Below, piece by piece: positions 5,997 to 21,413 of a stretch of 64,000 nt of DNA. Origin of the DNA: Dyella choica (GTDB lineage: Bacteria; Pseudomonadota; Gammaproteobacteria; Xanthomonadales; Rhodanobacteraceae); assembly GCF_003977665.1 (NCBI RefSeq), contig NZ_RYYV01000006.1, forward strand, positions 186,001 to 250,000, given 5' to 3'. Numbering within the stretch: position 1 is the stretch's first letter; every line of letters begins with the position of its first letter. A program made the position numbers and the translations under genes. The notes beneath the pieces are model-generated. The model saw only the letters and a program-made list of their open reading frames with translations, ran no database searches and had not been told where the DNA came from.

Positions 5997-7061
5997 ATGA
6001 CGACCAAAAACGCAACCATCAAGGACGTGGCGCGCGAGGCAAAGGTCTCGGTCGCTTCGGTTTCTCGCGTGCTCAACGGTCTGGGCGGCGTCACGCCCGC
6101 AACGCAAAAGATCGTGCGCGAAGTCGCTACGCGCCTGCATTACGTGCCGGACAATGCGGCGCGCAGTTTGATCACCGGACGCACACATACCATCGGTGCC
6201 GTGTTGCCGGACTTGTATGGCGAGTTCTTCTCCGAACTGATACGCGGCATCGACCTGGCTGCGCGGGTCCACGGATTGCATCTGCTGGTATCGAGTTCGC
6301 ATGACGGTGCGGAAGCTGCCGCCGCCGCGGTGTGCGCGATGCGCGGCCGCGTGGACGGGATGCTGATCCTTTCCGAATACGTAGACGCGGCTTTCCTCGA
6401 ACACAACCTGCCCGACAAATTGCCGGTGGTGTTGCTGGACAGCCCGGTCAAAAGCGCGCGCTACCCGGTCCTCAACATCGACAACCGAGCCGGTGCGATC
6501 GCCATGGTGCGGCATCTGGTCGAAGCAGGGCACCAGCAGGTCGCCTTCATCAGTGGTCCCAAGACCAGCTTTAACGCGCAGCAGCGCGAGAAAGGTTGTC
6601 GCGCCGCTATGGCCAAGCACGCGCCAGGCGTGCCGCTCACCGTCCTCGACGGTAATTTCAGTGAGGAATCGGGTTATCGCGCCGGGCAGGAGCTGTTGGG
6701 CAGGAAACCGCGCCCACAAGCCGTGTTCGCGGCCAACGACATGATGGCGATCGGCTGCTTGCGTGCTTTCAAGGAAGCAGGCCTCAACGTTCCGGGCGAC
6801 ATCGCGCTGGCCGGCTTCGACGACATCCTGATCTCGCGCTACCTCACGCCGCCGTTGAGCACGGTGCAGGTGCGCATCGCCGATCTCGGCCGCATCGCGC
6901 TGGAGCGGCTCGCGGGCTTGCTCAATCCGGCCGACAAGACGCCGGCGTCAGTCGAAACGCTGGGATGCGACATCGTCATCCGTGAATCCTGCGGGGGAAA
7001 GGCCGGCGCCACGGTAGCGCCAAGCAAGCTGCGCAAATCGCCGCGACCATTGCGCACATAA
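5997..7061 (+). CDS. LacI-family transcriptional regulator
   Basis: A 354-residue repressor. The N-terminal HTH (about 6-55) reads ATIKDVAREAKVSVASVSRV and LNGLGGVTPAT, with the hinge helix around NAARSLITGRT. The periplasmic-binding-like effector domain (62-335) has characteristic segments IGAVLPDLYGEFFSELIRG, VDGMLILSE, AVFAANDMMAIGC and GFDDILISRYLTPPLSTV. The effector is probably a sugar or other small carbon ligand. The gene lies on the same strand as the DUF5690 membrane protein, 214 bp apart, with a half repeat in between. Its own leader is AT-rich. There is no adjacent sugar pathway, so the target is unknown. Confidence 0.9.
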   Translation: MTTKNATIKDVAREAKVSVASVSRVLNGLGGVTPATQKIVREVATRLHYVPDNAARSLITGRTHTIGAVLPDLYGEFFSELIRGIDLAARVHGLHLLVSSSHDGAEAAAAAVCAMRGRVDGMLILSEYVDAAFLEHNLPDKLPVVLLDSPVKSARYPVLNIDNRAGAIAMVRHLVEAGHQQVAFISGPKTSFNAQQREKGCRAAMAKHAPGVPLTVLDGNFSEESGYRAGQELLGRKPRPQAVFAANDMMAIGCLRAFKEAGLNVPGDIALAGFDDILISRYLTPPLSTVQVRIADLGRIALERLAGLLNPADKTPASVETLGCDIVIRESCGGKAGATVAPSKLRKSPRPLRT

Positions 7062-7275: not shown

Positions 7276-8574
7276 GTGGGTTTCGTGTCGTCTTTGTCGC
7301 GTATCCGCCATCCCATGGCGATCAATCTGCTGGCCGGTGGCGCCGCCTTCATGGCCTATGCATCCATGTATGCCTTCCGCAAGCCGTTCACGGCGGCTTC
7401 GTTCGACGGCATGTACCTGGCCGGCGTCGACTACAAGGTCTGGCTGGTGATCGCGCAGGTGCTGGGCTACATGCTGAGCAAGGTGCGTGGCATTACCTGG
7501 ATCGCGGAAATACAGCGCCAGCGCCGCGCACGCACCATGACGGGACTGATCGGCTTTTCGTGGCTCGCCCTGCTCGGCTTTGCTCTGGTTCCGGCCCCCT
7601 GGAACATCGCGTTCCTTTTTCTCAACGGTTTGCCGCTGGGCATGGTGTGGGGTGTGCTGTTCGGTTATCTGGAAGGGCGCCGCGGTACCGAGTTGATGGG
7701 GGCGTGCATGTGCGCCAGCTTCATCGTGGGATCGGGCGTGGTGAAATCGGTCGGCATGTGGCTGATGGTCAACGGCCACGTCAGCGAATTCTGGATGCCG
7801 TTCGCCACCGGGCTGCTGTTCGTGCCGCCGCTGTGCCTGGCTACGTGGATCCTGGAGCACCTGCCGGCCCCCAACGCCGCCGATATTGCGGCACGCAGCG
7901 TGCGCATGCCGATGGACGCCAGCAGCCGTCGCGCCTTTATTGCGCGCTTCCTGCCGGGTATCGTGATGATCGTGGTGCCTTACGTTGCGCTAACTGTGAT
8001 GCGCGATTTCCGCGACAACTTTGCGGCGGAGATCTGGAGCGATCTTGGCCATGGCGGCGACATCTCCGTCTTCACCGAGACCGAAGTGCCGATCGCCATT
8101 GCCGTGCTGATCATTACCGGCTTCACGATGTTCGTGCGCGACAACCTCAAGGCGTTGATGATCAATCACGTGCTGATCTTCGGCGGCTTCGCCATTGCGG
8201 TGCTCAGTACCTGGCTGCACCGGCATGTCATGATCGATCCGCTGGCCTGGATCGGCTTCACCGGATTCGGTCTCTACCTCGCCTACGTGCCATACAGCGT
8301 CACCTTTTTCGAGCGCATGCTGGCGACGTTCCGGGTCACCGGCAACGTAGGCTTCATCATGTACATTGCCGACAGCAGCGGCTACACGGGCAGCGTGCTG
8401 GTGATCCTGCTCAAGCAGTTCGGCGCCATGCATCTTTCGTGGGCGTCGTTCTATGGCGATACCGTCATGGCGCTATCGGCTGTCGGCATGCTGATCACCC
8501 TGGCTTCGGCGCTCTATTTCCACGAAAAGGCGCGCCGCGCGAAGGAAATAGTCGCGGTGCCCGCGCCGGCCTGA
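7276..8574 (+). CDS. DUF5690 family polytopic membrane protein (MFS-like)
   Basis: A 432-residue, very hydrophobic protein with roughly 10-12 predicted membrane spans, beginning AINLLAGGAAFMAYASMYAF near residue 15. The opening FMAYASMYAFRKPFTAASFD and the central GMVWGVLFGYLEGRRGTELM are the features I associate with DUF5690, an MFS-like family of unknown function. It reads towards the phn region but lies on the far side of phnN, and no phosphonate ABC transporter (phnCDE) is present, so it is a candidate phosphonate or phosphate-ester permease. That role is inference from position only. The start used is a GTG with a weak RBS; a second GTG at 7285 is possible. Confidence 0.7.
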   Translation: MGFVSSLSRIRHPMAINLLAGGAAFMAYASMYAFRKPFTAASFDGMYLAGVDYKVWLVIAQVLGYMLSKVRGITWIAEIQRQRRARTMTGLIGFSWLALLGFALVPAPWNIAFLFLNGLPLGMVWGVLFGYLEGRRGTELMGACMCASFIVGSGVVKSVGMWLMVNGHVSEFWMPFATGLLFVPPLCLATWILEHLPAPNAADIAARSVRMPMDASSRRAFIARFLPGIVMIVVPYVALTVMRDFRDNFAAEIWSDLGHGGDISVFTETEVPIAIAVLIITGFTMFVRDNLKALMINHVLIFGGFAIAVLSTWLHRHVMIDPLAWIGFTGFGLYLAYVPYSVTFFERMLATFRVTGNVGFIMYIADSSGYTGSVLVILLKQFGAMHLSWASFYGDTVMALSAVGMLITLASALYFHEKARRAKEIVAVPAPA

Positions 8575-8685: not shown

Positions 8686-8712
8686 CGGGCACGTAGAATA
8701 GATCAGAGCGCC
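8686..8712. repeat. Degraded copy of the second palindrome family
   Basis: CGGGCACGTAGAATAGATCA and the following GAGCGCC match the loop end and right arm of the perfect palindrome at 787-852, with a few gaps and changes. Only one arm remains. It overlaps the stop codon of phnN, just as the intact copy touches the stop of trmL. Confidence 0.65.
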
Positions 8713-9248
8713 GAGCGGATCGCCGACAGCAGGCTTGCACCGGCATCCGCAATGCTGCCGTCGTTGTGGATCACCACGCTGCCGGCGGGAATCGGGTAGG
8801 CGTCCACCCGGGCAAGCCGTGCGGCGATCTCCTGTTCCGATTCGCGTCCACGAGCCGCCAGACGGCTGGCGATCGCCTGCTGACTGGCGGTAATCAGCAC
8901 CGGCCGCAAGGCCGGAAACCGCGAGCAGGCCTTGGTCAGGGCACCACGCGATCCATTCACCAGCACATCGGTGCCGTGCGCGAGCCAAAGCGCGACTTCG
9001 TTGCCAATGCCATAGTGCAGCCCATGCGCCTGCCAGGTGAGGGCGAACAATCCGCGCTGCTCGCGCAACTGGAATTCCGCCTCGCTCAGCGCCACATGGT
9101 TTTCGCCACCTGCGTGCGCGGGACGGGTGATGTAACGATGCGCGCACACCACGCCCTGCGCGATGCCATGTTCGCGTATCCACGCCAGCACGCTGTCCTT
9201 GCCTGCGCCGGAAGGGCCCATCACGTAATACAGATGGCCCGCGCTCAT
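8703..9248 (-). CDS. phnN: PhnN, ribose 1,5-bisphosphate phosphokinase
   Basis: A 181-residue guanylate-kinase-like enzyme that phosphorylates ribose 1,5-bisphosphate to PRPP, the last step of the C-P lyase pathway. The Walker A loop GPSGAGKDS is at residues 11-19. It also shows HRYITRPAHAGGENHVALSE, typical of the family, and ending VVIHNDGSIADAG. The length matches E. coli PhnN (185). The ATG overlaps the stop of the DUF1045 gene by four bases, so it is the last gene of a phnF-DUF1045-phnN operon divergent from phnGHIJKLM. A longer upstream frame is a shadow of the DUF1045 gene. Confidence 0.93.
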   Translation of the reverse strand: MSAGHLYYVMGPSGAGKDSVLAWIREHGIAQGVVCAHRYITRPAHAGGENHVALSEAEFQLREQRGLFALTWQAHGLHYGIGNEVALWLAHGTDVLVNGSRGALTKACSRFPALRPVLITASQQAIASRLAARGRESEQEIAARLARVDAYPIPAGSVVIHNDGSIADAGASLLSAIRSAL

Positions 9249-9901
9249 GCGTCGATGCCTGCGTCCAGCGCAAATCGCTCGAACGGTTCGAACGGCTGCC
9301 CCGGTTCGGTCTCGCGGCAAATCGTCAATGCATCGATGCAGGTCGGCGGGAGGTTCGCCACCCTTGGCGACAACCATGCCCGCAAGGCGCGTTCTTCCTC
9401 CTCGCTGGCCCGCGCGGACAAGGTCATGTGGAACCGATAGCGGTCCAACACGTAGGGGTAGCCAAACTGCTGATACAAGGCCAGTTCGGTTGCATCGAGC
9501 TTCGCGGCTCTACGCTGCCATGCTGCTTCGGTCGTCGGCGCGCGCAGTGAGTTCAGGCGGCGCGCGCACTGCTCGGCCAACTGGTTGATATCCGCCTTGT
9601 TACCCGACGGCCGCAAGGCCAGAAAGCCTGCCAGCTGCTGCAGGTGCAATGAAAGTTCGAAAGCCTGATTACGTTGGGCGATCTCGGCCACATGTCGGCG
9701 TAGCTCGTCGTAGCTGCCCTGCTCGTTCAGCGCAAACGGTGCGCACAGCGTTGCATGCCAGCCATAGCGGCGCACGTTGCCCATCAATTCATGCAATCGT
9801 TCCGCCGCCAACCCTGAAATCTCTCGCGTAGAGAGCCATTCCCGCCCGAAGGCATCCAGTTCGCTGCCCGCAACCGGGCAGAAATACACGGCATAGCGCA
9901 T
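9245..9901 (-). CDS. DUF1045 phosphonate-operon protein, 2H-phosphoesterase-like
   Basis: A 218-residue member of the DUF1045 family (phosphonate-operon protein). Two H-x-T motifs are visible, H49-A-T51 (YGWHATLCAPF) and H158-M-T160 (RFHMTLSA). This is the signature of the 2H phosphoesterase superfamily, which opens or closes cyclic nucleotide phosphates. The start is the ATG at 9901, which shares one base with the phnF stop (TGATG). It is coupled to phnN by an ATGA overlap. C-P lyase yields a ribosyl 1,2-cyclic phosphate that PhnP normally hydrolyses, and no phnP is in this locus, so this protein is a plausible substitute. That function is my inference. Confidence 0.85.
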   Translation of the reverse strand: MRYAVYFCPVAGSELDAFGREWLSTREISGLAAERLHELMGNVRRYGWHATLCAPFALNEQGSYDELRRHVAEIAQRNQAFELSLHLQQLAGFLALRPSGNKADINQLAEQCARRLNSLRAPTTEAAWQRRAAKLDATELALYQQFGYPYVLDRYRFHMTLSARASEEEERALRAWLSPRVANLPPTCIDALTICRETEPGQPFEPFERFALDAGIDA

Positions 9902-10632
9902 CAATGGTCCGCCATCAGTACCAATTGCACCCAGTCGCCCGAAAACCGCGTAATGCCGTACTGCACGGGCACTCCGCGCGTGTCGGCATTGATCGATTCC
10001 ACGTAGAGCAGGGGGCGGCTTGTCGGTTGCTGCATCAGGCGCGCCGTGATGGCGTCCGGAAGCCGGGCGGAGACGCGGGTGTGCTTGCGCTCGTAGTCGG
10101 CGACGCCGAACTCGGCCAGCGTACGGGTGACCGACAGTAGGCGGCGGTACAGCGCGGGCAGGTCGGCAAAGCGTGCTGCCGGAAAATACGACGTGCTGTA
10201 GTCGATGATGTGGCCATCGGCGCGGTCCAGCGTCTCGATCCGGTAGACGTATTCGTTGCGATCCAGGCCCAGCGCCCGCGCTACCTGGGGCGGCGGAAGC
10301 TCATGCGCGTCTTCCAGCACCCGGATATCGGCGTCGACGTTCAGGTTGCGCATGTTCTGCGTAAAACGCGTGCGGCGGCTGATCACGTAATCCAGCGTCT
10401 GCTCTTGCACGAAGGTGCCACGGCCCTGTTCGGTGCGCACCAGGTTGCGCTGCTCCAGGGCCGCGATGGCGCGGCGCACGGTGTGGCGGTTGACATTGAA
10501 GCGCATGGCCAGCTCCTGCGCCGAGGGCAATTGCTCCCCCTGGCGCAGCTGGCCCTTGAGTATGTCGGAAGCCAGGATGCCGCTGATCTGGCTCCACAGC
10601 GCCACCCCACGTCCGCGTTCGATTTCGCTCAT
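9901..10632 (-). CDS. phnF: PhnF, GntR/HutC-type regulator of phosphonate genes
   Basis: A 243-residue regulator. The winged HTH (about 10-78) contains WSQISGILASDILKGQLRQG, LPSAQELAMRFNVNRHTVRR and RTEQGRGTFV, a standard GntR N-terminus. The UTRA effector domain covers about 95-240 (YVYRIETLDRADGHIIDYST, PLLYVESINADTRGVPVQYG). The length equals that of E. coli PhnF (241). It heads the divergent operon with DUF1045 and phnN. The 134-bp gap to phnG holds a TCTAG-N4-CTAGA palindrome and a Pho-box-like pair. It probably represses both divergent units until phosphonate or a related ligand is bound. Confidence 0.9.
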   Translation of the reverse strand: MSEIERGRGVALWSQISGILASDILKGQLRQGEQLPSAQELAMRFNVNRHTVRRAIAALEQRNLVRTEQGRGTFVQEQTLDYVISRRTRFTQNMRNLNVDADIRVLEDAHELPPPQVARALGLDRNEYVYRIETLDRADGHIIDYSTSYFPAARFADLPALYRRLLSVTRTLAEFGVADYERKHTRVSARLPDAITARLMQQPTSRPLLYVESINADTRGVPVQYGITRFSGDWVQLVLMADH

Positions 10633-10646
10633 ACCACGTCCTCAAC

Positions 10647-10664
10647 CTGTCTAATCACCGTCAT
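10647..10664. promoter_or_regulatory. Candidate Pho box (PhoB site)
   Basis: CTGTCTA-ATCA-CCGTCAT: two 7-bp direct repeats separated by 4 bases, matching CTGTCAT at 5 of 7 and 6 of 7 positions. This is the spacing of the PhoB consensus. It lies 15 bases upstream of the phnF start and about 100 bases upstream of phnG. PhoB control of phn genes is well known in enterobacteria. An alternative reading is that CCTGTCTA, which recurs at 10723, is part of a PhnF operator. Confidence 0.4.
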
Positions 10665-10726
10665 GGCAGCGGCACGCTGACCTGCTGGAATGATCACCTG
10701 AAGGCGCCTTGTCGCGCCCCAGCCTG

Positions 10727-10740
10727 TCTAGATAACTAGA
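10727..10740. promoter_or_regulatory. Candidate PhnF operator upstream of phnG
   Basis: TCTAG-ATAA-CTAGA, a perfect 5-bp inverted repeat with an AT spacer, 26 bases before the phnG ATG in the phnF-phnG divergent gap. Palindromes of this size are usual for GntR/HutC regulators. Assignment to PhnF rests on position. Confidence 0.45.
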
Positions 10741-10766
10741 TATTTGTGACAAGCCTAGGAACACCC

Positions 10767-11213
10767 ATGGACACCTCCCCCCACTTGGCGCGTGCGCAAT
10801 GGATGTCGCTGCTGGCGCAGGCCGATCCGGCCGAGCTCGCCGCGGCGATGGACGCGTTTGCGCCGCCCGCCGATACGGCCTGGCTGCGCCCGGCCCAGAC
10901 TGGCCTGTACATGTTGCGCGGCCGGATCGGCGGCACCGGTCCGCAGTTCAATTTCGGCGAGATTACCGTGACCCGCTGCAGTGTCCAGGTAGGCGAGCGC
11001 ATCGGCCATGCCTGGGTGCGCGGCAGCCAGGCACGCCATGCCGAGCTGGCCGCCTTTGCCGATGCGCTGATGCAGGACCCCGAGCAGGCTGCGCACCTGC
11101 GCCGGCAGGTGATTGAACCGCTGCGCAGTGCCCTGGAAGAGCGCCGGGAAGCGGCGAGCCGCAAGGCTGCCGCCAGCAAGGTGGAATTCTTTACCGTGGT
11201 GAGGGGCGAATGA
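10767..11213 (+). CDS. phnG: PhnG, C-P lyase complex subunit
   Basis: A 148-residue subunit of the carbon-phosphorus lyase core complex (PhnGHIJ). With PhnI it supports transfer of the phosphonate onto ribose of ATP, releasing adenine. Family segments include ARAQWMSLLAQADPAEL, FNFGEITVTRCSVQV and GHAWVRGSQARHAELAAFAD. I chose the ATG at 10767 because AGGA lies six bases before it; a GTG at 10746 would add seven residues and overlaps the operator region. The gene opens a tightly packed operon, and its stop overlaps the phnH start (ATGA). The length matches the E. coli protein (150). Confidence 0.95.
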   Translation: MDTSPHLARAQWMSLLAQADPAELAAAMDAFAPPADTAWLRPAQTGLYMLRGRIGGTGPQFNFGEITVTRCSVQVGERIGHAWVRGSQARHAELAAFADALMQDPEQAAHLRRQVIEPLRSALEERREAASRKAAASKVEFFTVVRGE

Positions 11214-11788
11214 TGCTGGCCGCCTTTGCCGAACCCGTATTCGACAGCCAGCGCACGTTCCGCGAACTGCTGCAGGCGATGGCCCGACCGGCGGTGCCGC
11301 GCCGCCTGCCCGTCTTGCCGCCCGCGCCTGCGCCGGTCCGGCCGGAAGCGATGGCCATACTGCTGACCCTTTGCGATGCCGCGACTTCGGTCTGGCTGCA
11401 GCACCCGGCAGCGGAAGTAGCCGGACATCTGCGCTTCCATGCCGGTTTGCGTCTGGCCGAGCAGACGCAGCAGGCGGATTTCGCCTTGATCGATGCCCCC
11501 GCTTCGATGCCCGCGCTGGACAGCTTCGCGTGCGGCGATTTGCGCTATCCGGATCGCTCCGCCAGCCTGATCATGCAGGTTGAGGGCTTTCGCACCGATC
11601 GCGGCCGGCGCTTTGCCGGCCCCGGCATTCGCGATACCGAGATGCTTGCTATCGAGGGGCTGCCGGATGAGTTCTGGCACCGGCGCGCGGAGCTTTCCGC
11701 GCAGCTGCCGCTGGGTGTGGACCTGTATTTCGTCGCCGCGCAACACGTCGTTGCCATGCCGCGCACGACTCGCTTGCTGGAGGATTGA
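11210..11788 (+). CDS. phnH: PhnH, C-P lyase complex subunit
   Basis: A 192-residue subunit of the C-P lyase core complex. Family features are the N-terminal EPVFDSQRTFRELLQAMARP (the usual xxFRxxLxAMxRPG-like opening), CDAATSVWL in the middle, and FAGPGIRDTEMLAIEGLPDE near the end. Length is that of E. coli PhnH (194). Its start overlaps the phnG stop and its stop is followed directly by the phnI ATG, with GGAGGA as RBS. It has no known enzymatic activity on its own and serves as a structural part of PhnGHIJ. Confidence 0.94.
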   Translation: MMLAAFAEPVFDSQRTFRELLQAMARPAVPRRLPVLPPAPAPVRPEAMAILLTLCDAATSVWLQHPAAEVAGHLRFHAGLRLAEQTQQADFALIDAPASMPALDSFACGDLRYPDRSASLIMQVEGFRTDRGRRFAGPGIRDTEMLAIEGLPDEFWHRRAELSAQLPLGVDLYFVAAQHVVAMPRTTRLLED

Positions 11789-12892
11789 ATGTACGTAGCC
11801 GTCAAGGGCGGCGAGCAGGCCATCGCTCGTTCGCTGGAGTTGCTGGCCGAAGCGCGCCGTGGTGACAAGGCTGTGCCGGAGCTGGAGTTGGCGCAGATTC
11901 GCGAACAGCTTCGCCTCGGGGTTGCGCGCGTGATGCAGGAAGGCTCGCTGTATGACGAAGAGCTGGCCGCCCTGGCCATCCGCCAGGCGGCGGGCGACAT
12001 GCTCGAAGCGATCTTCCTGCTGCGTGCGTACCGCACCACCTTGCCACGTTTCGGCTACACGCGGCCGCTGGATACCGCAGCCATGCGCGTGCGGCGCCGG
12101 GTCTCGGGCACCTTCAAGGATATTCCTGGTGGTCAGGTGCTGGGTCCCACGTATGACTACACGCAACGCCTGCTCGAATTCGACACCGCGCCGATCCCCA
12201 CGACGCAACCCGCCGACACTGCACTGCCGGCCAGCATGCCGCGAGTGCTGGATCTGCTCGATGCCGAAGCGCTGATCGAGCGCATCGATCCGGGCAGCGA
12301 TCCGGAACCGGTCGATCTGACCCGCGAACCGCTGATGTTTCCCGCCAACCGCGCCACGCGCCTGCAGAATCTCGCGCGGGGCGATGAAGGCTTCCTGCTC
12401 GGCATGGCCTATTCCACGCAACGCGGCTATGCGGAAAACCATCCCTTCGCCGGCGAAATCCGCATGGGCGAGGTGGATGTCGTGATCTGTCCGGACGAGC
12501 TGGGCTTCCCGATCGAAATCGGCTCGATCACGCTGACCGAGTGTCAGATGATCAACCAGTTCCACGGCGGCAACGGCACGCCGCCGCAGTTCACGCGAGG
12601 CTACGGCTTGAGCATGGGGGAGGGGGAGCGCAAGGCCATGTCGATGGCCTTGGTCGACCGCGCCTTGCGCTGCGATGAACTGGCCGAAGCGAACCAGGCG
12701 CCGGCGCAAAGCCAGGAATTCGTGCTGTCGCATTCGGACAGCGTGGAGGCATCCGGTTTCGTGCAGCACCTGAAACTGCCGCACTACGTGGATTTCCAGG
12801 CGGAACTTTCGCTGTTGCGTACGCTGGCCGTGCAGCACACCGCGGATGCCGACGAGCAGCCGTTGAGCGTAACCACAGGAGCGCAGGCATGA
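11789..12892 (+). CDS. phnI: PhnI, phosphonate ribosyltransferase subunit of C-P lyase
   Basis: A 367-residue protein (E. coli PhnI 354). It is the catalytic subunit for displacing adenine from MgATP to give alpha-D-ribose 1-methylphosphonate 5-triphosphate, together with PhnG, PhnH and PhnL. The family start MYVAVKGGEQAIARSLELLA is visible, as are LRAYRTTLPRFGYTRPLDT, FKDIPGGQVLGPTYDYTQRL and GDEGFLLGMAYSTQRGYAEN. A third block is HPFAGEIRMGEVDV, followed by ITLTECQMINQFHG. It is coupled to phnJ by an ATGA overlap. Confidence 0.96.
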   Translation: MYVAVKGGEQAIARSLELLAEARRGDKAVPELELAQIREQLRLGVARVMQEGSLYDEELAALAIRQAAGDMLEAIFLLRAYRTTLPRFGYTRPLDTAAMRVRRRVSGTFKDIPGGQVLGPTYDYTQRLLEFDTAPIPTTQPADTALPASMPRVLDLLDAEALIERIDPGSDPEPVDLTREPLMFPANRATRLQNLARGDEGFLLGMAYSTQRGYAENHPFAGEIRMGEVDVVICPDELGFPIEIGSITLTECQMINQFHGGNGTPPQFTRGYGLSMGEGERKAMSMALVDRALRCDELAEANQAPAQSQEFVLSHSDSVEASGFVQHLKLPHYVDFQAELSLLRTLAVQHTADADEQPLSVTTGAQA

Positions 12893-13728
12893 CTCCGCGC
12901 TACAACTTCGCCTTCCTCGATGAAGACACCAAGCGCATGCTGCGCCGAGCCCTGCTCAAGGCCGTGGCGATTCCCGGCTACCAGGTGCCGTTCGGCAGTC
13001 GCGAAATGCCGTTGCCCTACGGCTGGGGTACAGGGGGCATCCAGGTCACCGCCGCCTTGCTCGGACCTGACGACGTCCTGAAGGTGATCGACCAAGGGGC
13101 GGACGACACCACCAATGCGGTGAATATCCGCCGCTTCTTTTCACGGGTTGCCGGCATTGCAACCACGGAACGCACCGCCGACGCCACGCTGATCCAGACC
13201 CGTCACCGCATTCCTGAAACATCGCTCAGGGAAGATCAGATCCTGGTTTTCCAGGTGCCTGAACCCGAGCCGCTGCGCACCCTGGAACCCCGCGAAGCGG
13301 AGACGCGCACGTTACACGCCCTGGCCGATTACGGATTGATGCATGTGAAGCTGTACGAAGACATCGCCCAGTACGGGCGCATCGCCACCAGTTATGACTA
13401 CCCGGTACTGGTCGATGGCCGTTTCCTCACCTCGCCCTCGCCGATCCCCAAGTTCGACAACCCCAAGCTCGATCGCTCGCCGGCCTTGATGCTGTTCGGT
13501 GCCGGACGCGAGAAACGTCTCTACGCCATCCCGCCCTATACGCGCGTCGAAAGCCTGGCCTTCGACGATCATCCGTTCGAGCTTCAGAGCTGGGAGCACC
13601 ATTGCGCGCTGTGCGGCTCGAACGACAGCTACCTGGACGAAGTGGTGGTGGACGATAGCGGTACGCGCATGTTCGTATGCTCCGACACCGACTACTGCAG
13701 CGGTCACCGCCCGGAGGCACGAGCATGA
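12889..13728 (+). CDS. phnJ: PhnJ, radical SAM C-P lyase (catalytic)
   Basis: A 279-residue enzyme that homolytically cleaves the carbon-phosphorus bond of ribose 1-methylphosphonate 5-phosphate, giving the ribosyl 1,2-cyclic phosphate and the alkane. The C-terminal cysteines are C239 and C242 (HHCALCGS), C264 (FVCSD) and C270 (YCSGH). They correspond to the three cluster ligands and the catalytic thiyl cysteine of E. coli PhnJ. The glycine that forms the glycyl radical lies in AIPGYQVPFGSREMPLPYG (G30). All key residues are present, so the enzyme should be active. Coupled on both sides by ATGA overlaps. Confidence 0.97.
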   Translation: MTPRYNFAFLDEDTKRMLRRALLKAVAIPGYQVPFGSREMPLPYGWGTGGIQVTAALLGPDDVLKVIDQGADDTTNAVNIRRFFSRVAGIATTERTADATLIQTRHRIPETSLREDQILVFQVPEPEPLRTLEPREAETRTLHALADYGLMHVKLYEDIAQYGRIATSYDYPVLVDGRFLTSPSPIPKFDNPKLDRSPALMLFGAGREKRLYAIPPYTRVESLAFDDHPFELQSWEHHCALCGSNDSYLDEVVVDDSGTRMFVCSDTDYCSGHRPEARA

Positions 13729-14495
13729 GTGCGCTGCTGCAAGTCCGCGATCTGAGTCTTCACTACGGACCACGCGTAGGCTGCGAAGACGTGAGTTTCG
13801 ACCTGCATCCGGGTGAGCTGCTGTGCATCGTCGGCGAATCGGGTTCCGGCAAATCGACGCTGCTCAATGCCGTTGCAGCGCAGCTCACCCCCACGGCCGG
13901 CAGCGTGCGTTATCGCCAGCGCGACGGCGAATGGCTCGAACTTGGCGCGCTGAGCGAAGCGGACCGTCGCCGCCTGGCGCGCGAGGAATGGGGCTTCGTC
14001 ACCCAGAACCCCCGCGACGGCCTGCGCCTGAATGTCAGTGCGGGCGCCAACGTCGCCGAACGCTTGATGGCGCTCGGCATGCGCCACTACAGCCAATTGC
14101 GCGCTACCGCGCGCCATTGGCTCGAACGCGTGGAGATCGACCCCACGCGCATCGACGATGCGCCCACCAGTTTTTCCGGCGGCATGCAGCAGCGTTTGCA
14201 GATTGCACGCACGCTCGTGACGCAACCGCGCCTGGTGTTCATGGACGAACCCACCGCCGGCTTGGATGTGTCCGTGCAGGCGCGCATTCTCGATCTGCTG
14301 CGACGGTTGGTGAACGAGCTGGGTCTGGCTGCGGTGATGGTGACGCACGACCTGGCCGTGGCGCGCCTGCTGGCCGCGCGCACGATCGTGATGCAAGGCG
14401 GCCGCGTGGTCGAAACCGGCCTCACCGACCAGATCCTCGACGATCCGCAACATCCGTATACGCAATTGCTCGTTTCCTCGGTACTGACCACATGA
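13725..14495 (+). CDS. phnK: PhnK, ABC-type ATPase associated with C-P lyase
   Basis: A 256-residue ABC ATPase with Walker A GESGSGKST (about 37-45), signature SFSGGMQQR, Walker B RLVFMDEPTAGLD and the H-loop VMVTHDL. It contains the dipeptide-ABC-like ending DDPQHPYTQLLVSSVL that PhnK shares with oligopeptide ATPases. PhnK binds the PhnGHIJ core near the PhnJ active site and, with PhnL, gates the complex; it is not a transporter subunit. The start ATG overlaps the phnJ stop (ATGA), and its stop overlaps the phnL start the same way. Length fits E. coli PhnK (252). Confidence 0.95.
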   Translation: MSALLQVRDLSLHYGPRVGCEDVSFDLHPGELLCIVGESGSGKSTLLNAVAAQLTPTAGSVRYRQRDGEWLELGALSEADRRRLAREEWGFVTQNPRDGLRLNVSAGANVAERLMALGMRHYSQLRATARHWLERVEIDPTRIDDAPTSFSGGMQQRLQIARTLVTQPRLVFMDEPTAGLDVSVQARILDLLRRLVNELGLAAVMVTHDLAVARLLAARTIVMQGGRVVETGLTDQILDDPQHPYTQLLVSSVLTT

Positions 14496-15193
14496 CCGCC
14501 GCCTTGATGCTTGAACTGCGTGATCTCAGCAAGTCGTTCGAATTGCACCAGCAGCAGGGAGCGCGCCTGAATGTGCTGCGCGGGTTCGACTTGCGGCTAC
14601 ATGCGGGCGAATGCGTGGTGCTGTCCGGTCCGTCGGGCGCGGGCAAGAGCACCTTGTTGCGCGTGATCTACGCCAACTATCGACCCAGCCTTGGTGCGGT
14701 GCATGTGCGCCATCAGGATCGCTGGCTCGACCTGGCCAAGGCGACGCCCCACGAGGTCCTGGATGTCCGCCGCCACACCTTGGGCTACGTGAGCCAGTTT
14801 CTGCGCGTGATCCCGCGCGTGCCGGCGCTGGATATCGTGGCCGAGCCGCTGGTGGCGCATGGTGTCGACGTCCAGCAGGCGCGCCGCCGCGCTGCTTACA
14901 TGCTAAGCCGCCTGAACGTGCCCGAACGCCTGTGGCAACTTCCGCCGGGTACGTTTTCCGGCGGCGAACAGCAGCGCGTGAACATTGCGCGCGGCTTGAT
15001 CGTGCCGCGTCCGATCCTGTTGCTGGACGAACCCACGGCATCACTCGATGCCGACAACCGCGCCATCGTCGCCGAATTGCTGGCCGAGGCGTGCAGTGCC
15101 GGCTCCGCCGTGCTCGGCATTTTCCATGACGAGGACATGCGCGATCGCGTTGCCACCCGCCTGTTTCCGATGCAAGCGCTTGAAGCCGCCTGA
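14492..15193 (+). CDS. phnL: PhnL, ABC-type ATPase associated with C-P lyase
   Basis: A 233-residue ABC ATPase: Walker A SGPSGAGKST, signature TFSGGEQQRVNIARG, Walker B PILLLDEPTASLD and the H-loop IFHDEDMRD. The insert RHTLGYVSQFLRVIPRVPAL is the characteristic PhnL Q-loop region. It is needed for phosphonate ribosylation and binds as a heterodimer with PhnK on the core complex. The usual longer open frame in the region mixes two genes; the ATG at 14492 is supported by the ATGA overlap with phnK. A 51-bp gap separates it from phnM. Confidence 0.95.
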   Translation: MTAALMLELRDLSKSFELHQQQGARLNVLRGFDLRLHAGECVVLSGPSGAGKSTLLRVIYANYRPSLGAVHVRHQDRWLDLAKATPHEVLDVRRHTLGYVSQFLRVIPRVPALDIVAEPLVAHGVDVQQARRRAAYMLSRLNVPERLWQLPPGTFSGGEQQRVNIARGLIVPRPILLLDEPTASLDADNRAIVAELLAEACSAGSAVLGIFHDEDMRDRVATRLFPMQALEAA

Positions 15194-15244
15194 TTTGCCG
15201 TTTCAATACCCCGTCTATTGCCACCCGCCCGTGCTGAGAAGACC

Positions 15245-16387
15245 ATGAATGACCTCGTTTTGACCAATGCCCGCATCGTGCTGGACAACAGCGTGATCCA
15301 CGGCACCCTGATCGCCCGCAAAGGCGTCATCCGCCTGGTCGAAGACGGCTCGACCCAGGCTCCCGGCGCGATCGATTGCGAAGGCGACTACATCATTCCA
15401 GGCCTGGTGGAGCTGCACACGGACAATCTGGAAAAGCACCTGATGCCGCGCGCGGGCGTGATCTGGCCATCGATTCCCGCCGTACTGACGCATGACGCAC
15501 AGGTGGCAGCGGCTGGCATTACCACGGTCTTCGACGCGCTGTCGGTAGGCGACCTGGAAGAGGAAAGCGTGCGCATCGAAACCCTGCGCAGCACTTACGA
15601 TGCCATCCTGGAGGGACAGGCCACCGGCGCCTTGCGTGCGGAGCACTGGATTCACCTGCGCTGCGAGCTGGCCTATCCGCGCCTGATCGAAGCGCTTGAA
15701 CCGTTGATGGATCATGGCAGCGTGCGCCTGATCTCGCTGATGGACCACACGCCGGGCCAGCGCCAGTACCGCGATCTGGCGCAGTACCGCAAGTACTACA
15801 GCAAGAACCACATGAGCTGGACGGAAGACGAATTTGCCGACGTCGTGCGGCGTCGTACCGAGCAGCAGGCCCAATACAGCGCCAGGCACGAAAGCATCGT
15901 GCTGGGCATGATGCACGGCCGCAGCATGGTGCTGGCCAGCCATGACGACACGGATACCCAACAAGTGGAGCATGCGCACCGCATCGGCGTGACGATCTCG
16001 GAATTTCCCACCACCCAGGAAGCCGCCGATGCCGCGCATGCGCGCGGCCTGGTCACGGTGATGGGGGCGCCCAACGTCGTTCGCGGCGGTTCGCACTCCG
16101 GCAACGTCGCGGCGCTGGAGCTGGCCCGCACCGATCGGCTGGACATGTTGTCCTCCGACTATGTGCCGGCCAGCTTGCTGCATGGCGCCTTCATGCTGCA
16201 TACGCAAGCTGGCTGGTCGATGCCCAAGGCGATGGCGACGGTAAGCCGCAATCCCGCGAAGGCGCTGGGCTTTGACGATCGTGGCTCGCTGAAAGCCGGC
16301 ATGCGCGCGGATGTCGTGCGTATGCGCGCCGTGGATCGTCTGCCTATCGTGCGCAATGTGTGGGTACGCGGAGAGCGCGCGTTCTAA
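15245..16387 (+). CDS. phnM: PhnM, ribose 1-methylphosphonate 5-triphosphate diphosphatase
   Basis: A 380-residue amidohydrolase-superfamily enzyme that removes pyrophosphate from the triphosphate intermediate to give the PhnJ substrate. The visible family motifs are IIPGLVELHTDNLEKHLMPR (metal-binding segment), LISLMDHTPGQRQ, ASHDDTDTQQVEHA, TVMGAPNVVRGGSHSGN and SSDYVPASLL. The length equals E. coli PhnM (378). The start ATG at 15245 follows GAGAAG; nine further codons upstream are unlikely. It is the last gene of the phnGHIJKLM operon, with no clear terminator but a degraded repeat 27 bases after the stop. Confidence 0.95.
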   Translation: MNDLVLTNARIVLDNSVIHGTLIARKGVIRLVEDGSTQAPGAIDCEGDYIIPGLVELHTDNLEKHLMPRAGVIWPSIPAVLTHDAQVAAAGITTVFDALSVGDLEEESVRIETLRSTYDAILEGQATGALRAEHWIHLRCELAYPRLIEALEPLMDHGSVRLISLMDHTPGQRQYRDLAQYRKYYSKNHMSWTEDEFADVVRRRTEQQAQYSARHESIVLGMMHGRSMVLASHDDTDTQQVEHAHRIGVTISEFPTTQEAADAAHARGLVTVMGAPNVVRGGSHSGNVAALELARTDRLDMLSSDYVPASLLHGAFMLHTQAGWSMPKAMATVSRNPAKALGFDDRGSLKAGMRADVVRMRAVDRLPIVRNVWVRGERAF

Positions 16388-16485: not shown

Positions 16486-16672
16486 GCGCTGGGCTATCGA
16501 GCCCGGAAATAGGCATCGCACGTATTCGCTCGGGAAAAGGCATAGACAGCCATCCAACTTGGCTAGACCACGTCATAAGCGTTTCATCGCTGCTCTCTAG
16601 CCTCTGCAAAGTTGCCGTATCCAACATTTGTGCCGGCGGATTCCGGCCTTCACACCCTCGGGGGAAACCATC

Positions 16673-19336
16673 TTGAAGATCAATCCAATCACCTGCGCGG
16701 TGCTGGCCGCGCTCGCGGTGACTCGTGTGTCCTATGCCGATGGCACGGCCCAACCGGCGGCGACCGCCCAGCCGGCCTCGACCAGTCAGCCGGCGCAGCC
16801 GGACAAGGCGGGGGACAAGTCGGCGAACAAGGCGAATTCGTCGCAGGCGTCCATGCTCGGCGTAGTCACCGTTACCGCGCAGCGCACGGCCGAGGACATG
16901 CAGGACGTGCCGATCACGCTGCAGGCGTTCACCGCCACCACCTTGCAGCAGCAGAACATCGTGTCGTTCAACGACCTGATCAAATACCTGCCCAATGTGA
17001 CCTTCGCCGCCAACGGTCCGGGCCAGGGCAATATCTACATGCGCGGCCTCAGCACCGGCTTCCTGGGCAACCAGTCCAGCGCATCGATTGCGCCGTTCCC
17101 GAACGTCGCGGTCTATCTCGACGACCAGTCGATGCAATTTCCGGCGCGCAACCTCGACATCTACATGGCCGACATGGAGCGCGTCGAGGTGCTCGAAGGC
17201 CCGCAGGGCACGCTGTTCGGCGGTGGCGCCGAAGCGGGCGCGGTGCGCTACATCACCAACAAGCCGGACCTGTACAAGGTCAGCGGCAACGCGGAAGCCG
17301 GAATCGGTACGACCGAAGGCGGCTCGTCGAACAACTCGGCCCACGTGGTGCTCAACCTGCCGATCATCCCCGGCAAGCTCGCCGTGCGCGGTGTCATCTA
17401 CAACGAGCGCCAGGGCGGCTATATCGACAACGTGCCCAGCACGTTCACCCGCCGACCCACCGACGGCGGTGGCGCGATGGCGCCTTATGTGGCTGCCGGC
17501 GGTACCCCGGTCGCCAACAACTATTCCGTGGCGCAGAGCAGCTGGAACCCGGTCACCTACCAGGGCGGCCGTCTGAGCGTCGCCTACCAGATCAACGACA
17601 ACTGGAACGCACTGATCTCCGAGAGCTACCAGGACCTGGATGCACGAGGCCAGTCCTCGATCTATCCGATCGGTGCCGATGGCCAGGCGCTAGGCACCAA
17701 CCAGATCAACGCGTTTGTGCCGGCCTGGAACAAGGACCGCTTCTCCAACACCGCCTGGACCTTGAACGGCCAGGTCGGCGACCTTTCGCTGGTGTACACC
17801 GGCGGCTACACCAATCGCCACATCAGCGAACAGCAGGACTACACCAACTACTCGCGCAGCGCCGGTGGCATGTATTACAGCTGCACCGGCACTTCGGCCG
17901 GCCTGTCCAGCGCCGGCAAGCCGATCTGCTACTCGCCGGTGGGCTATTGGAACGACCGCGTGGCCAGCACGCACGAAACGCACGAGCTGCGCCTGAGCAC
18001 GCCGGACGACTATCGCCTGCGCGCCATCGGCGGTCTGTACTATGAAAACTTCAACATCGACGACCACATGAACTTCGACTACAGGACGATCCCGTCCTGT
18101 ACGCCGCAGAACCTCACCAGCGCCCTAGCCGGCGGCGCGCCCTGCGTGGCCAACGCCATGTCCTCACCCGGTGTGATGCTTCCCGACGGCACGGCCTTCG
18201 GCGAGGTGGAGCGGCGCGGCTACAAGCAGGAAGCAGCGTTTGGTTCGCTGTCCTACGACATCATTCCGGATGTGTTGACCGTGACCGGCGGCACGCGTTA
18301 CTACCATTACTCCGAATGGCAGACCGGGACCGAGTTCTGGACCGCCAGCAACCAGGTGAACGTCCCCAACGGCACCTACCTTGGCAATGACGCGGTGATG
18401 AACTACCACACCACCTATCATGGCTTCAAAAGTCGTGCGAACGTGGAATGGCACATCACGCCTGACGTGATGGTGTACTACACCTTCTCGCAGGGCTTCC
18501 GTCCGGGCGGCTTCAACCGCACCACCGGCGCAGTGGCCAAGCTCAATGGCCAGGCGCAGTACCAGAAGCCGATCAGCTACGCCCCCGATACGCTGACCAA
18601 CAACGAGATCGGCTTCAAGACCACGTTCTTCAATGACCGCCTGCTGCTCAACGGCTCGCTGTACGACATGCGGTGGGACAACGTGCAGATGCAGTTCTTC
18701 AACCCGCTGGTGCTGGGCAACACCACCTTCGCGGTCAACGGGCCGAACTACAAGGTGGACGGCATGGAGCTGCAATGGCATGCGCGCCTCACCGACGGCC
18801 TGTCGCTGATCGGCTCCGGTTCGCTCAACCACGCCAAGCAGACCAATTCGCCGTGCCTGGTCGACAACATTCCGAAGTCGCCCAACTACAACCAGTGCAT
18901 CATCCAGACCGGCGCCGCCGCTGCAGTGACGTCGTTCGCCAATCCGTTCGGTGTCATCGGCAGCACGCCGGCCTTCTCACCCCGTTCGCAGGTCAATATG
19001 CGCTTGCGTTACGACTGGACCTTCGGTGACGGCTACAAGGCGTTCTGGCAGTTCGGCGCCAACTACACCGGCTCGATGTACAACCAGCCGGCAACCTATC
19101 CGAGCGGCGCGGGCGTGACCGACATCACCACGGTGGAACTGCGTTACCTGCAGGCCGGTTACACCACCTTCGACGCCTCGGTCGGCCTTGCCAAGGATGC
19201 CTGGAACGTTTCGCTCTACGGCACCAACCTGGGCAACAGCCACGCGAGCGTGTTTACCTCGTCGGCCGAGTTCATCAAGTCGGAAGTGCCCATTCGCCCG
19301 CGCGTGGTGGGTGTGAAGTTCGGCTACAAGTTCTGA
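16673..19336 (+). CDS. TonB-dependent receptor downstream of the phn operon
   Basis: About 887 residues, an outer-membrane active-transport channel. The signal peptide KINPITCAVLAALAVTRVSYA is followed by a Gln/Pro/Thr-rich stretch. The plug begins VTVTAQRTAEDMQDVPITLQ and includes VEVLEGPQGTLFGGGAEAGA. The 22-strand barrel runs to a terminal aromatic (VVGVKFGYKF). I prefer the TTG at 16673, because GGGGGAAA lies just before it and the signal peptide begins there; the longer frame also starts with TTG and lacks an RBS. Substrate is unknown. Its place after phnM and before a sulfotransferase leaves both phosphonate and sulfated or iron ligands possible. A strong terminator follows. Confidence 0.88.
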   Translation: MKINPITCAVLAALAVTRVSYADGTAQPAATAQPASTSQPAQPDKAGDKSANKANSSQASMLGVVTVTAQRTAEDMQDVPITLQAFTATTLQQQNIVSFNDLIKYLPNVTFAANGPGQGNIYMRGLSTGFLGNQSSASIAPFPNVAVYLDDQSMQFPARNLDIYMADMERVEVLEGPQGTLFGGGAEAGAVRYITNKPDLYKVSGNAEAGIGTTEGGSSNNSAHVVLNLPIIPGKLAVRGVIYNERQGGYIDNVPSTFTRRPTDGGGAMAPYVAAGGTPVANNYSVAQSSWNPVTYQGGRLSVAYQINDNWNALISESYQDLDARGQSSIYPIGADGQALGTNQINAFVPAWNKDRFSNTAWTLNGQVGDLSLVYTGGYTNRHISEQQDYTNYSRSAGGMYYSCTGTSAGLSSAGKPICYSPVGYWNDRVASTHETHELRLSTPDDYRLRAIGGLYYENFNIDDHMNFDYRTIPSCTPQNLTSALAGGAPCVANAMSSPGVMLPDGTAFGEVERRGYKQEAAFGSLSYDIIPDVLTVTGGTRYYHYSEWQTGTEFWTASNQVNVPNGTYLGNDAVMNYHTTYHGFKSRANVEWHITPDVMVYYTFSQGFRPGGFNRTTGAVAKLNGQAQYQKPISYAPDTLTNNEIGFKTTFFNDRLLLNGSLYDMRWDNVQMQFFNPLVLGNTTFAVNGPNYKVDGMELQWHARLTDGLSLIGSGSLNHAKQTNSPCLVDNIPKSPNYNQCIIQTGAAAAVTSFANPFGVIGSTPAFSPRSQVNMRLRYDWTFGDGYKAFWQFGANYTGSMYNQPATYPSGAGVTDITTVELRYLQAGYTTFDASVGLAKDAWNVSLYGTNLGNSHASVFTSSAEFIKSEVPIRPRVVGVKFGYKF

Positions 19337-19409: not shown

Positions 19410-21413
19410 ATGAACGCCACGGCGATCGACCCATCGGTGGAGCAGGGGCTCCAACGCATACGCGAATGGCAACAGCAAGGCCAGCATGCGCAGGCCCTGC
19501 AGGCCGCCCAGGCGTTGGCGGTCGGTGCGCCGGACCATCGCGATGTGCTGCACCTGATCGCCAGAAGCCAGCGCTACCTTGGACAGCTCGAGGCCGCCTT
19601 GGCGACACTCGCGCGGCTGGAACTGGGTCATCCCCATTTCAGTCGCCTGCACGAAGAACGCGGCCTGTGTTACGTGGCGATGCGCGATGCGCCGCATGCC
19701 GTCGACGCCTTGCTGCGCGCGGTCAACATCAATCCTGCGTTGGCTTCGAGCTGGCATATGCTCGAAGGTCTGTATCGCATGACTGGCGAAACCGCCAACG
19801 CCGCAACGGCAGCGGCGCACGTGGCCACGCTCAAGCGCCTGGCTCCGGAAGTCGTCCATGCCACCAGTCTGTTCTCGGATGGCGACCTGGAGCCGGCCGA
19901 AAGCATCATTCGTCCGTACCTGCTCAGGGTCGGCAACGATATTGAAGCCATGCGTCTGCTTGCCCGCCTCGGCCTGGTTCGCGATGTGCTCGATGACGCC
20001 GAAATCCTGCTCGATGCGGTGCTTAAGATCGACCCGGACTATCACGCTGCACGTTACGACTATGCCTGCGTATTGTTCGAGCGGCACCTGTATCAGCGCG
20101 CCTGCGAAGAGATCGAAAAGCTGCTCGCCGTCGCCCCCAGCCATCTCGACTACCGCACGCTTTACGCCAGCGCGAGTGTGGGCCTGGGCGAACACGAGCG
20201 TGCCATCACGCTATACCGGGAGCTGCTGCGCGATATGCCTGGTGCGGCGGACCTGCATCTGTCGCTCGCCCACTCGCTGAAGACGCAAGGCAGGCAGGCT
20301 GAGGCGATCGAAGCCTATCGCGCCGCAACGGCGGCACGCCCCAGCTTTGGCGACGCTTACTGGAGCCTGGCCAACCTCAAGACTTACGGTTTTACGGACG
20401 ATGAAATCGCGCGCATGCGTAGCGAGGAAGGCTCGCCGGCAACACCGTTGGTCGACCGCTACCATCTGTGCTTCGCGCTGGGCAAGGCATGGGAAGATCG
20501 CGGCGACTATGCCCAGTCGTGGCACTACTACGAGCAAGGCAATGCGCTGAAGCGTTCGGAAAGCCGCTACCGGGCCGAGATCATCGAAACCAACACGCGC
20601 AAGCAGATCCAAGTGTGCACGCGCGAGTTCCTGGCAAGCCGTGTGGGGATGGGTGATCCGAGTCCCGATCCGATTTTCATCGTCGGCTTGCCGCGCGCCG
20701 GCTCCACCCTGATCGAGCAGATCCTCGCCTCGCACTCGCTGGTCGAAGGTACGCAAGAGCTGGCGGACATCCCGCGCATCGTGCTGGACCTGCAAGGACG
20801 CGATCCCAATCTGGACGATCCGCGCTATCCGGGCGTCTTGACCCAACTGCCACCCGAGGCATTTCGCCGGCTCGGTGAAAAGTATCTGCGCGACACCCGG
20901 ATCTATCGCAGCGGCAAGCCCTACTTCATCGACAAGATGCCGAACAATTTTCGGCATCTGGGACTGATCCATTTATTGCTGCCCAACGCGAAAATCATCG
21001 ACGCACGCCGCGAACCCATGGCCTGCTGCTTCAGCAATCTCAAGCAACTGTTTGCCACCGGCCAGGAGTTCACCTACAGCATCGAAGACATTGCGCGCTA
21101 CTACCGTACCTATCTCGACCTGATGCAACACTGGGACGAGGTGCTGCCGGGCCGCATCCTGCGCGTCTATCACGAAGACATAGTCGATGACCTGGAAGGC
21201 AACGTGCGCCGCATCCTGGATTTCTGCGGCCTGCCGTTCGAGCCGGGCTGCCTTGAGTTCCACAAGACCGAGCGAAGCGTGCGCACGGCCAGCTCCGAAC
21301 AGGTGCGCCGCCCCATCTTTCGCGACGGCGTCGACCAGTGGACCAAGTACGCTCCCTATCTCGCTGCGCTCAAAGAGCAGCTCGGTGATGCGCTGGAGCG
21401 CTATCGCACGTAG
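19410..21413 (+). CDS. TPR-repeat sulfotransferase family protein
   Basis: A 667-residue protein. Residues about 10-345 are TPR-like helical repeats (ERGLCYVAMRDAPHAVDALL, YDYACVLFERHLYQRACEEI, LAHSLKTQGRQAEAIEAYRA). The C-terminal part (about 420-660) is a sulfotransferase domain with the 5'-phosphosulfate loop PIFIVGLPRAGSTLIEQIL, followed by GTQELADI and a FIDKMPNNFRHLGLI segment. It probably transfers sulfate from PAPS to an unknown acceptor. TPR-sulfotransferase genes next to TonB receptors are common in xanthomonads and caulobacters. The stop codon TAG is the outer GTAG foot of a REP doublet, so the C-terminus was set by the repeat. Confidence 0.88.
   Translation: MNATAIDPSVEQGLQRIREWQQQGQHAQALQAAQALAVGAPDHRDVLHLIARSQRYLGQLEAALATLARLELGHPHFSRLHEERGLCYVAMRDAPHAVDALLRAVNINPALASSWHMLEGLYRMTGETANAATAAAHVATLKRLAPEVVHATSLFSDGDLEPAESIIRPYLLRVGNDIEAMRLLARLGLVRDVLDDAEILLDAVLKIDPDYHAARYDYACVLFERHLYQRACEEIEKLLAVAPSHLDYRTLYASASVGLGEHERAITLYRELLRDMPGAADLHLSLAHSLKTQGRQAEAIEAYRAATAARPSFGDAYWSLANLKTYGFTDDEIARMRSEEGSPATPLVDRYHLCFALGKAWEDRGDYAQSWHYYEQGNALKRSESRYRAEIIETNTRKQIQVCTREFLASRVGMGDPSPDPIFIVGLPRAGSTLIEQILASHSLVEGTQELADIPRIVLDLQGRDPNLDDPRYPGVLTQLPPEAFRRLGEKYLRDTRIYRSGKPYFIDKMPNNFRHLGLIHLLLPNAKIIDARREPMACCFSNLKQLFATGQEFTYSIEDIARYYRTYLDLMQHWDEVLPGRILRVYHEDIVDDLEGNVRRILDFCGLPFEPGCLEFHKTERSVRTASSEQVRRPIFRDGVDQWTKYAPYLAALKEQLGDALERYRT

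Follow-up and report, generated by a model that had tools for sequence, protein, structure and literature searches.

In the C-P lyase pathway of Escherichia coli, which acts on phosphonates, the step between PhnJ and PhnN is assigned to PhnP, a protein with the metallo-beta-lactamase fold. C-P lyase clusters without phnP have been described in marine Rhodobacterales, Aminobacter and Sinorhizobium. According to the available text of one study, the role of PhnP is likely taken in such clusters by a 2H protein named 'RcsF' (PMC3840354, 2013), and the available text of another reports the same proposal for DUF1045 (PMC8235418). The review PMC10574752, in its accessible part, credits the proposal to a paper of 2009 and gives a survey of 54 operons, with PhnP in 27 and rcsF in the 16 operons without phnP; 'Putative C-P lyase DUF1045' is also a row of a P-stress response table in the accessible part of PMC10132767. 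RcsF and DUF1045 are, we infer, one family, and the idea that DUF1045 replaces PhnP is not new, being in print under one name or the other; literature searches on DUF1045, RcsF and PhnP gave no report of a DUF1045 assay in the titles found. The present work is centred on the DUF1045 gene of the phn cluster from Dyella choica (Rhodanobacteraceae), contained in a stretch of 64,000 nucleotides (assembly GCF_003977665.1, contig NZ_RYYV01000006.1, positions 186,001 to 250,000) hereafter called the window. It goes beyond the previous work in two respects: the life of DUF1045 outside C-P lyase, and a missing PhnE with DUF5690 perhaps instead.

The genome comprises 5.49 Mb in 68 contigs and is 99.96% complete. 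The C-P lyase core phnGHIJKLM is complete (plus strand, 10746-16387), whereas phnF, the DUF1045 gene and phnN lie on the minus strand (10632-8703), divergent from phnG-M. PhnG, PhnH, PhnI and PhnJ were called by Pfam models, and PhnK, PhnL, PhnM, PhnN and PhnF by NCBIfam equivalog models. Every gene scored over the cut-off of its family model, so that phnGHIJKLM and phnN, which the initial annotation had listed from the letters of the DNA, are indeed present. The ATGA overlap that it reported between DUF1045 and phnN is also read in the sequence. The genes are the following:

8703..9248, minus strand: phnN, ribose 1,5-bisphosphokinase (TIGR02322, 212.4 bits, cut-off 156; ATGA overlap with the DUF1045 gene)
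9245..9901, minus strand: DUF1045 (PF06299), 2H phosphoesterase, proposed phosphoribosyl cyclic phosphate phosphodiesterase (PF06299, 147.9 bits, gathering cut-off 24.3; H49-x-T51 and H158-x-T160; AlphaFold2 (AF2) model with a predicted local distance difference test score (pLDDT) of 87.6)
9901..10632, minus strand: phnF, GntR/UTRA regulator (TIGR02325, 260.4 bits, cut-off 156.8; TGATG overlap with the DUF1045 gene)
10746..11213, plus strand: phnG (PF06754, 168.3 bits; TIGR03293)
11210..11788, plus strand: phnH (PF05845, 198 bits; TIGR03292)
11789..12892, plus strand: phnI (PF05861, 530.4 bits)
12889..13728, plus strand: phnJ, C-P bond-cleaving subunit (PF06007, 487.9 bits)
13725..14495, plus strand: phnK (TIGR02323, 379 bits, cut-off 302.85)
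14492..15193, plus strand: phnL (TIGR02324, 337.3 bits, cut-off 256.3)
15218..16387, plus strand: phnM (TIGR02318, 468.1 bits, cut-off 390.55; the listed start is an upstream TTG and the true start may be further in)

The divergent order distinguishes this locus from the RcsF/DUF1045 operons mentioned above, with which it shares the absence of phnP and the proposed role of the 2H protein; it is repeated in the loci of 19/19 relatives. Other differences are that the window protein, like those of the Dyella group, is shortened in the region of residues 24-40, compared also with most other families, that the genome has no PhnE over cut-off, and that sister species have kept DUF1045 after losing C-P lyase. 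A similar gap at residues 24-40 was observed in the DUF1045 protein of one other locus (L067, genome G016).

The DUF1045 protein in the position of PhnP

In our opinion it is likely that the DUF1045 protein is a 2H cyclic phosphodiesterase substituting for PhnP in the C-P lyase pathway, and that it has besides a role independent of C-P lyase and PhnN. Its function as PhnP substitute is well supported by its presence, the gene overlap, the 2H fold, the conservation of the motifs and the mutual exclusion with PhnP. In the proposed mechanism, PhnJ would release 5-phosphoribosyl 1,2-cyclic phosphate, which would be bound by the two H-x-T motifs of DUF1045; one histidine would activate water and the other would protonate the leaving 2-oxygen. 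The product would be ribose 1,5-bisphosphate, which PhnN, whose start codon overlaps the DUF1045 stop, would convert to phosphoribosyl pyrophosphate (PRPP). The substrate, the product and the way in which the ring opens are presumed ones; the proposed reaction and the position in the pathway are those of E. coli PhnP, from which DUF1045 differs in having an unrelated fold.

The protein has 218 amino acids, counted from the ATG at 9901, and is a member of PF06299; the Pfam models 2_5_RNA_ligase2 and LigT_PEase are also over cut-off. The residues H49/T51 and H158/T160, pointed out in the initial annotation as the 2H signature, are as stated, and both motifs are conserved in 24/24 relatives and in the 22/22 rows of a wide alignment (the window and 21 of 30 loci), while serine replaces T160 in 1/36 DUF1045 rows of the bacterial family of the window. 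The AF2 model is a confident one with a 2H-phosphoesterase fold, and the best matches of a structure search with it were mostly 2H proteins, including one trypanosome mitoribosome chain. The model is close to the plant ADP-ribose 1'',2''-cyclic phosphodiesterase and equally near LigT and this cyclic phosphodiesterase (CPDase). By its motifs and predicted fold, the protein would belong to the 2H phosphoesterase superfamily. The Arabidopsis enzyme (Appr>p CPDase, 1fsi/1jh6) and E. coli LigT have in common with DUF1045 the fold, the two H-x-T motifs and cyclic phosphate chemistry on ribose, but only about 16-18% identity in structural alignment, and their substrates, with no tie to phosphonates, are ADP-ribose cyclic phosphate, nucleotides or RNA. 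A search of PDB sequences with a profile of 22 DUF1045 proteins found no relative (one chance-level match, E 0.65), and among 13 pattern matches in viral contigs searched for DUF1045 there was no relative either. DUF1045 over cut-off is single-copy in the genome of the window, and its nearest named relative, from Dyella flagellata, is 78% identical. Concerning the 24 relatives' loci, 21 are named Dyella or Rhodanobacter and the other 3 belong to Rhodanobacteraceae, Lysobacterales and Candidatus Eremiobacteraeota.

The initial annotation found no phnP in the locus, and a search of the whole genome with the PhnP model TIGR03307 agrees with it: nothing was over cut-off, the best score being 26.1 bits of the 272.25 needed, for what reads as a glyoxalase-II-like protein. 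The distribution of both proteins was then tabulated for the phylum, from 398 evenly sampled genomes of which 83 have PhnJ over cut-off. The table covers 80 of these, as G361 and G390 were left out before any result and G000 was searched alone. PhnP was found in 19 genomes, DUF1045 in 59, both in 0 and neither in 2, so the tabulation of DUF1045 versus phnP that had been suggested with the proposal came out in its favour. The Fisher test gives p 1.8e-16 if genomes are treated as independent, though they are kin. Linkage points in the same direction, with phnJ within 10 kb of DUF1045 in 44 of the 59 DUF1045 genomes, and among 80 genomes without PhnJ, taken evenly from that phylum sample with the exception of the window's own order, DUF1045 is in only 3, in one of which it just passes the cut-off (30.1 bits).

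Several results weigh against this reading. The phn-operon DUF1045 model, TIGR03223 (Phn_opern_protn), matches the window protein over model positions 1-227 of 228 with 201.5 bits, which is below its cut-off of 248.95; for this reason the protein is a divergent relative of that family rather than a formal member. DUF1045 is not near phnJ in 15 of the 59 genomes, and 25 of the 59 contain elsewhere a PhnP-like protein below the cut-off (43.6-85.9 bits); according to the listed positions none of these proteins comes closer than 30 kb to a phnJ, and the genome of the window has no PhnP-like protein of that strength. Moreover, two PhnJ genomes, G374 and G377, have neither PhnP nor DUF1045. Finally, the exclusion is partly due to shared ancestry, as the 80 genomes represent 20 families and only one is mixed, with the two proteins in different genera. 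It could accordingly be argued that each lineage has inherited one or the other protein by phylogeny alone, with no functional equivalence, and the finding of both states in 1/20 families favours this view. Nevertheless, every lineage still needs the step, exactly one of the two proteins is present in 78/80 genomes, and the DUF1045 fold suits the chemistry, so that we consider inheritance alone quite improbable as an explanation.

G374 and G377 belong to one family, and their phn loci (L114 and L115) carry phnF-N; in G178, of the same genus as G377, PhnP adjoins phnN. A third enzyme at the two loci was looked for and rejected, since no open reading frame (ORF) of at least 90 amino acids after phnN resembles PhnP or DUF1045. 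In G377 there is a gap of 470 bases between phnN and a phnC-like gene. As for G374, the opposite strand carries the next likely gene, and the ORF listed as phnN is without its P-loop end, on account of which this locus may itself be decaying. Both cases are read as loss of the enzyme and not as a new enzyme.

DUF1045 in genomes without C-P lyase

In an even set of 398 genomes from the order of the window, PhnJ was found in 21 and DUF1045 in 35. The latter consist of 20 PhnJ genomes of the window's own family, 14 PhnJ-less genomes of one genus of that family, and G413. DUF1045 was not matched in the 21st PhnJ genome (G450, from another family), where the search did not extend to PhnP and the contig breaks off in phnM. 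G413 is without PhnJ and has two DUF1045 copies: one is together with phnM and phnN (L219, 7641-10039), the only further phn genes found in that 16 kb of sequence, and the second stands alone (L220, 8084-8734). On the other hand, the 24 relatives' loci comprise 18 phn loci and 6 of another kind, and genome-wide searches for PhnJ in the 6 Dyella genomes of the latter gave none. Joining these 6 with the 14 genomes of the single genus (4 are common to both) gives 16 PhnJ-less genomes, which form a single clade (support 100/98).

DUF1045 is intact, with both motifs, in 16/16 of these genomes. In the surroundings of DUF1045, to which the search for phnN was confined, phnN survives as an intact ORF in 5 genomes, one of which has an altered glycine in the P-loop; in 2 (L170, L205) it is a stub or broken, and in 9 no match better than chance was found. 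Remnants of phnF are found upstream of DUF1045 in two genomes (E 2e-14 and 2e-12), and weak, divergent phnG matches occur at the expected place in three others (E 0.001, 0.026 and 0.08). The weaker of these may be chance, because a phnG-like match of similar strength (L213, E 0.023) is at the wrong place. Taken together, this looks like the decay of what was once a phn locus.

The selection on DUF1045 was estimated from pairwise ratios of nonsynonymous to synonymous change (dN/dS, Nei-Gojobori), which are rough because synonymous sites are partly saturated. The median is 0.236 among 20 phn-locus genes (170/190 pairs usable), 0.115 among the 16 phn-less genes (120/120 pairs) and 0.124 among the 11 phn-less genes without intact phnN (55/55 pairs). 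Within two sub-clades whose members all lack phnN, the ratio is 0.036-0.080 in 18/18 pairs (dS 0.49-1.37), with 12-37 amino-acid-changing versus 63-110 silent changes per pair. The wide alignment has 26 invariant positions. None of the 16 phn-less rows departs from them except at 67, 95 and 130, where one row each differs, which leaves 23 unchanged; the 20 rows with phn genes vary at ten of the 26. There is little doubt that DUF1045 is under strong purifying selection in the phn-less clade. phnN is also constrained in the phn-less genomes that keep it (0.078-0.264 in 10 pairs, DUF1045 being 0.064-0.145 in the same pairs).

It might be thought that the gene has merely not had time to decay, given that the clade is single and that some members retain phnF and phnN remnants. 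However, on the clade tree phnN has been lost or broken at least four times (losses-only count) and DUF1045 never among the 16, the low ratios hold in every pair of the phnN-less sub-clades and nearly all invariant positions are kept, which makes lack of time a very improbable explanation. The constraint together with the same active site argues instead for a continuing enzymatic role and not for slow decay. DUF1045 seems, therefore, to have a second job besides C-P lyase; the selection is computed, whereas the reaction behind it is supposed. The phn-less clade is in this sense a natural experiment that bears on the PhnP-replacement proposal. That DUF1045 fills the PhnP gap, as the initial annotation suggested, agrees with the genome without PhnP, the exclusion and the 2H fold, but it is an incomplete account, since under selection in PhnJ-less genomes this cannot be the sole use of the protein there.

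The same results could be taken further, to the view that DUF1045 acts chiefly as a general phosphodiesterase on cyclic phosphates or RNA ends, of the LigT/CPDase kind, placed in phn operons by chance, with another hydrolase opening the phosphoribosyl cyclic phosphate. Selection in 16 PhnJ-less genomes, 11 of them without intact phnN beside the gene, and a fold equally near LigT and CPDase would fit with it. Against it stand the near-strict replacement of PhnP, the strong linkage to phnJ and a window genome without PhnP over cut-off, and we regard it as unlikely; a PhnP substitute with an additional role remains the preferred interpretation.

Related to this additional role, without PhnJ no phosphoribosyl cyclic phosphate should be expected from phosphonates. 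One source of phosphoribosyl 1,2-cyclic phosphate is the spontaneous cyclisation of PRPP. A tentative proposal, which we hold to be possible though doubtful, is that DUF1045 serves also as a stand-alone metabolite-repair enzyme that would clear this or other ribosyl 1,2-cyclic phosphates, for instance those from PRPP cyclisation, in species devoid of C-P lyase. If this were the case, repair would account for its survival where phnF, phnG-M and phnN have decayed. As putative substrates in the phn-less species, other cyclic phosphates of ribosyl compounds would fit, and so would those of the RNA type. In the available text of the literature found on phosphoribosyl cyclic phosphate with PRPP, the phosphonate pathway is the only context. 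Whatever the substrate, strong selection in the absence of C-P lyase means that the enzyme is useful beyond phosphonates.

DUF5690 and phosphonate uptake

Three further genes of the window accompany the phn cluster:

7276..8574, plus strand: DUF5690 polytopic membrane protein, candidate inner-membrane phosphonate transporter (PF18943, 550.5 bits; 12 hydrophobic segments)
16628..19336, plus strand: TonB-dependent receptor, candidate outer-membrane receptor, just downstream of phnM (PF00593, PF07715; the listed start is an upstream TTG)
19410..21413, plus strand: TPR-sulfotransferase-like protein, which travels with the TonB-dependent receptor (PF13469, 173 bits)

A LacI gene (5997-7061) was rejected as a member of the system, as it is present in 1/24 relatives' loci (L152), 5 kb from DUF5690.

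Searches for transport components were made with the PhnE model, PhnC and PhnD not being searched: nothing was over cut-off in the genome of the window (best score 58.9 of 216.7 bits) and PhnE was over cut-off in 0/20 C-P lyase genomes of its family (the window and 19 others). The same search gave PhnE in 10/10 PhnJ genomes of other families, chosen from those of the phylum and order samples. DUF5690, in turn, is at or near the phn locus in the 20/20 C-P lyase genomes of the family, including the window; it is within the fetched 20 kb in 18/19 relatives, and in the remaining one (G562) it is 19 kb from phnJ.

DUF5690 was over cut-off in 35 genomes of the order sample, 15 of them without PhnJ, and the loci of 11 of these 15 (L140-L150) were examined, using as queries proteins of the window and a further two from L143, which is itself among the 11. 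Phosphonate genes are beside DUF5690 in 10/11 loci (none at L146): a FAD oxidoreductase of the TIGR03364 type in 10/11, a PhnX-like HAD hydrolase in 9/11, a PhnF-like regulator in 9/11 and a PhnM-like protein in 8/11. Proteins of L143, L144 and L148 that were tested against the models exceeded the cut-off for TIGR03364, TIGR02325 and TIGR02318 and fell just short of it for TIGR03351. The PhnM-like protein and the PhnF-like regulator are kept together in 8/11 loci (L140-L144, L148-L150), with TIGR02318 over cut-off in one tested (L143).

Since DUF5690 accompanies two different phosphonate pathways, it is a good importer candidate, and we favour moderately the view that it is a phosphonate importer or permease, perhaps in place of the missing PhnE. 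The likeness to the transporters PhnCDE and AepP/AepXVW, as far as the available text on them goes, would be phosphonate uptake, although DUF5690 is a separate family of polytopic proteins. A possible assignment as OPA/GlpT-type antiporter was dropped, as the structure model was unusable (pLDDT 44.8) and no solved relative was found by sequence, and no transporter class is claimed. The word DUF5690 is in no paper of the literature searched. With PhnE missing and DUF5690 a constant neighbour, a family of putative phosphonate importers is indicated at two kinds of phosphonate locus.

With regard to the outer membrane, the TonB-dependent receptor and the sulfotransferase-like gene are downstream of phnM in the phn loci of 13/19 relatives. 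The receptor is possibly an outer-membrane receptor for a phosphonate-bearing ligand, and the same pair appears at 5/11 PhnX-type loci, where the receptor is 61-71% identical.

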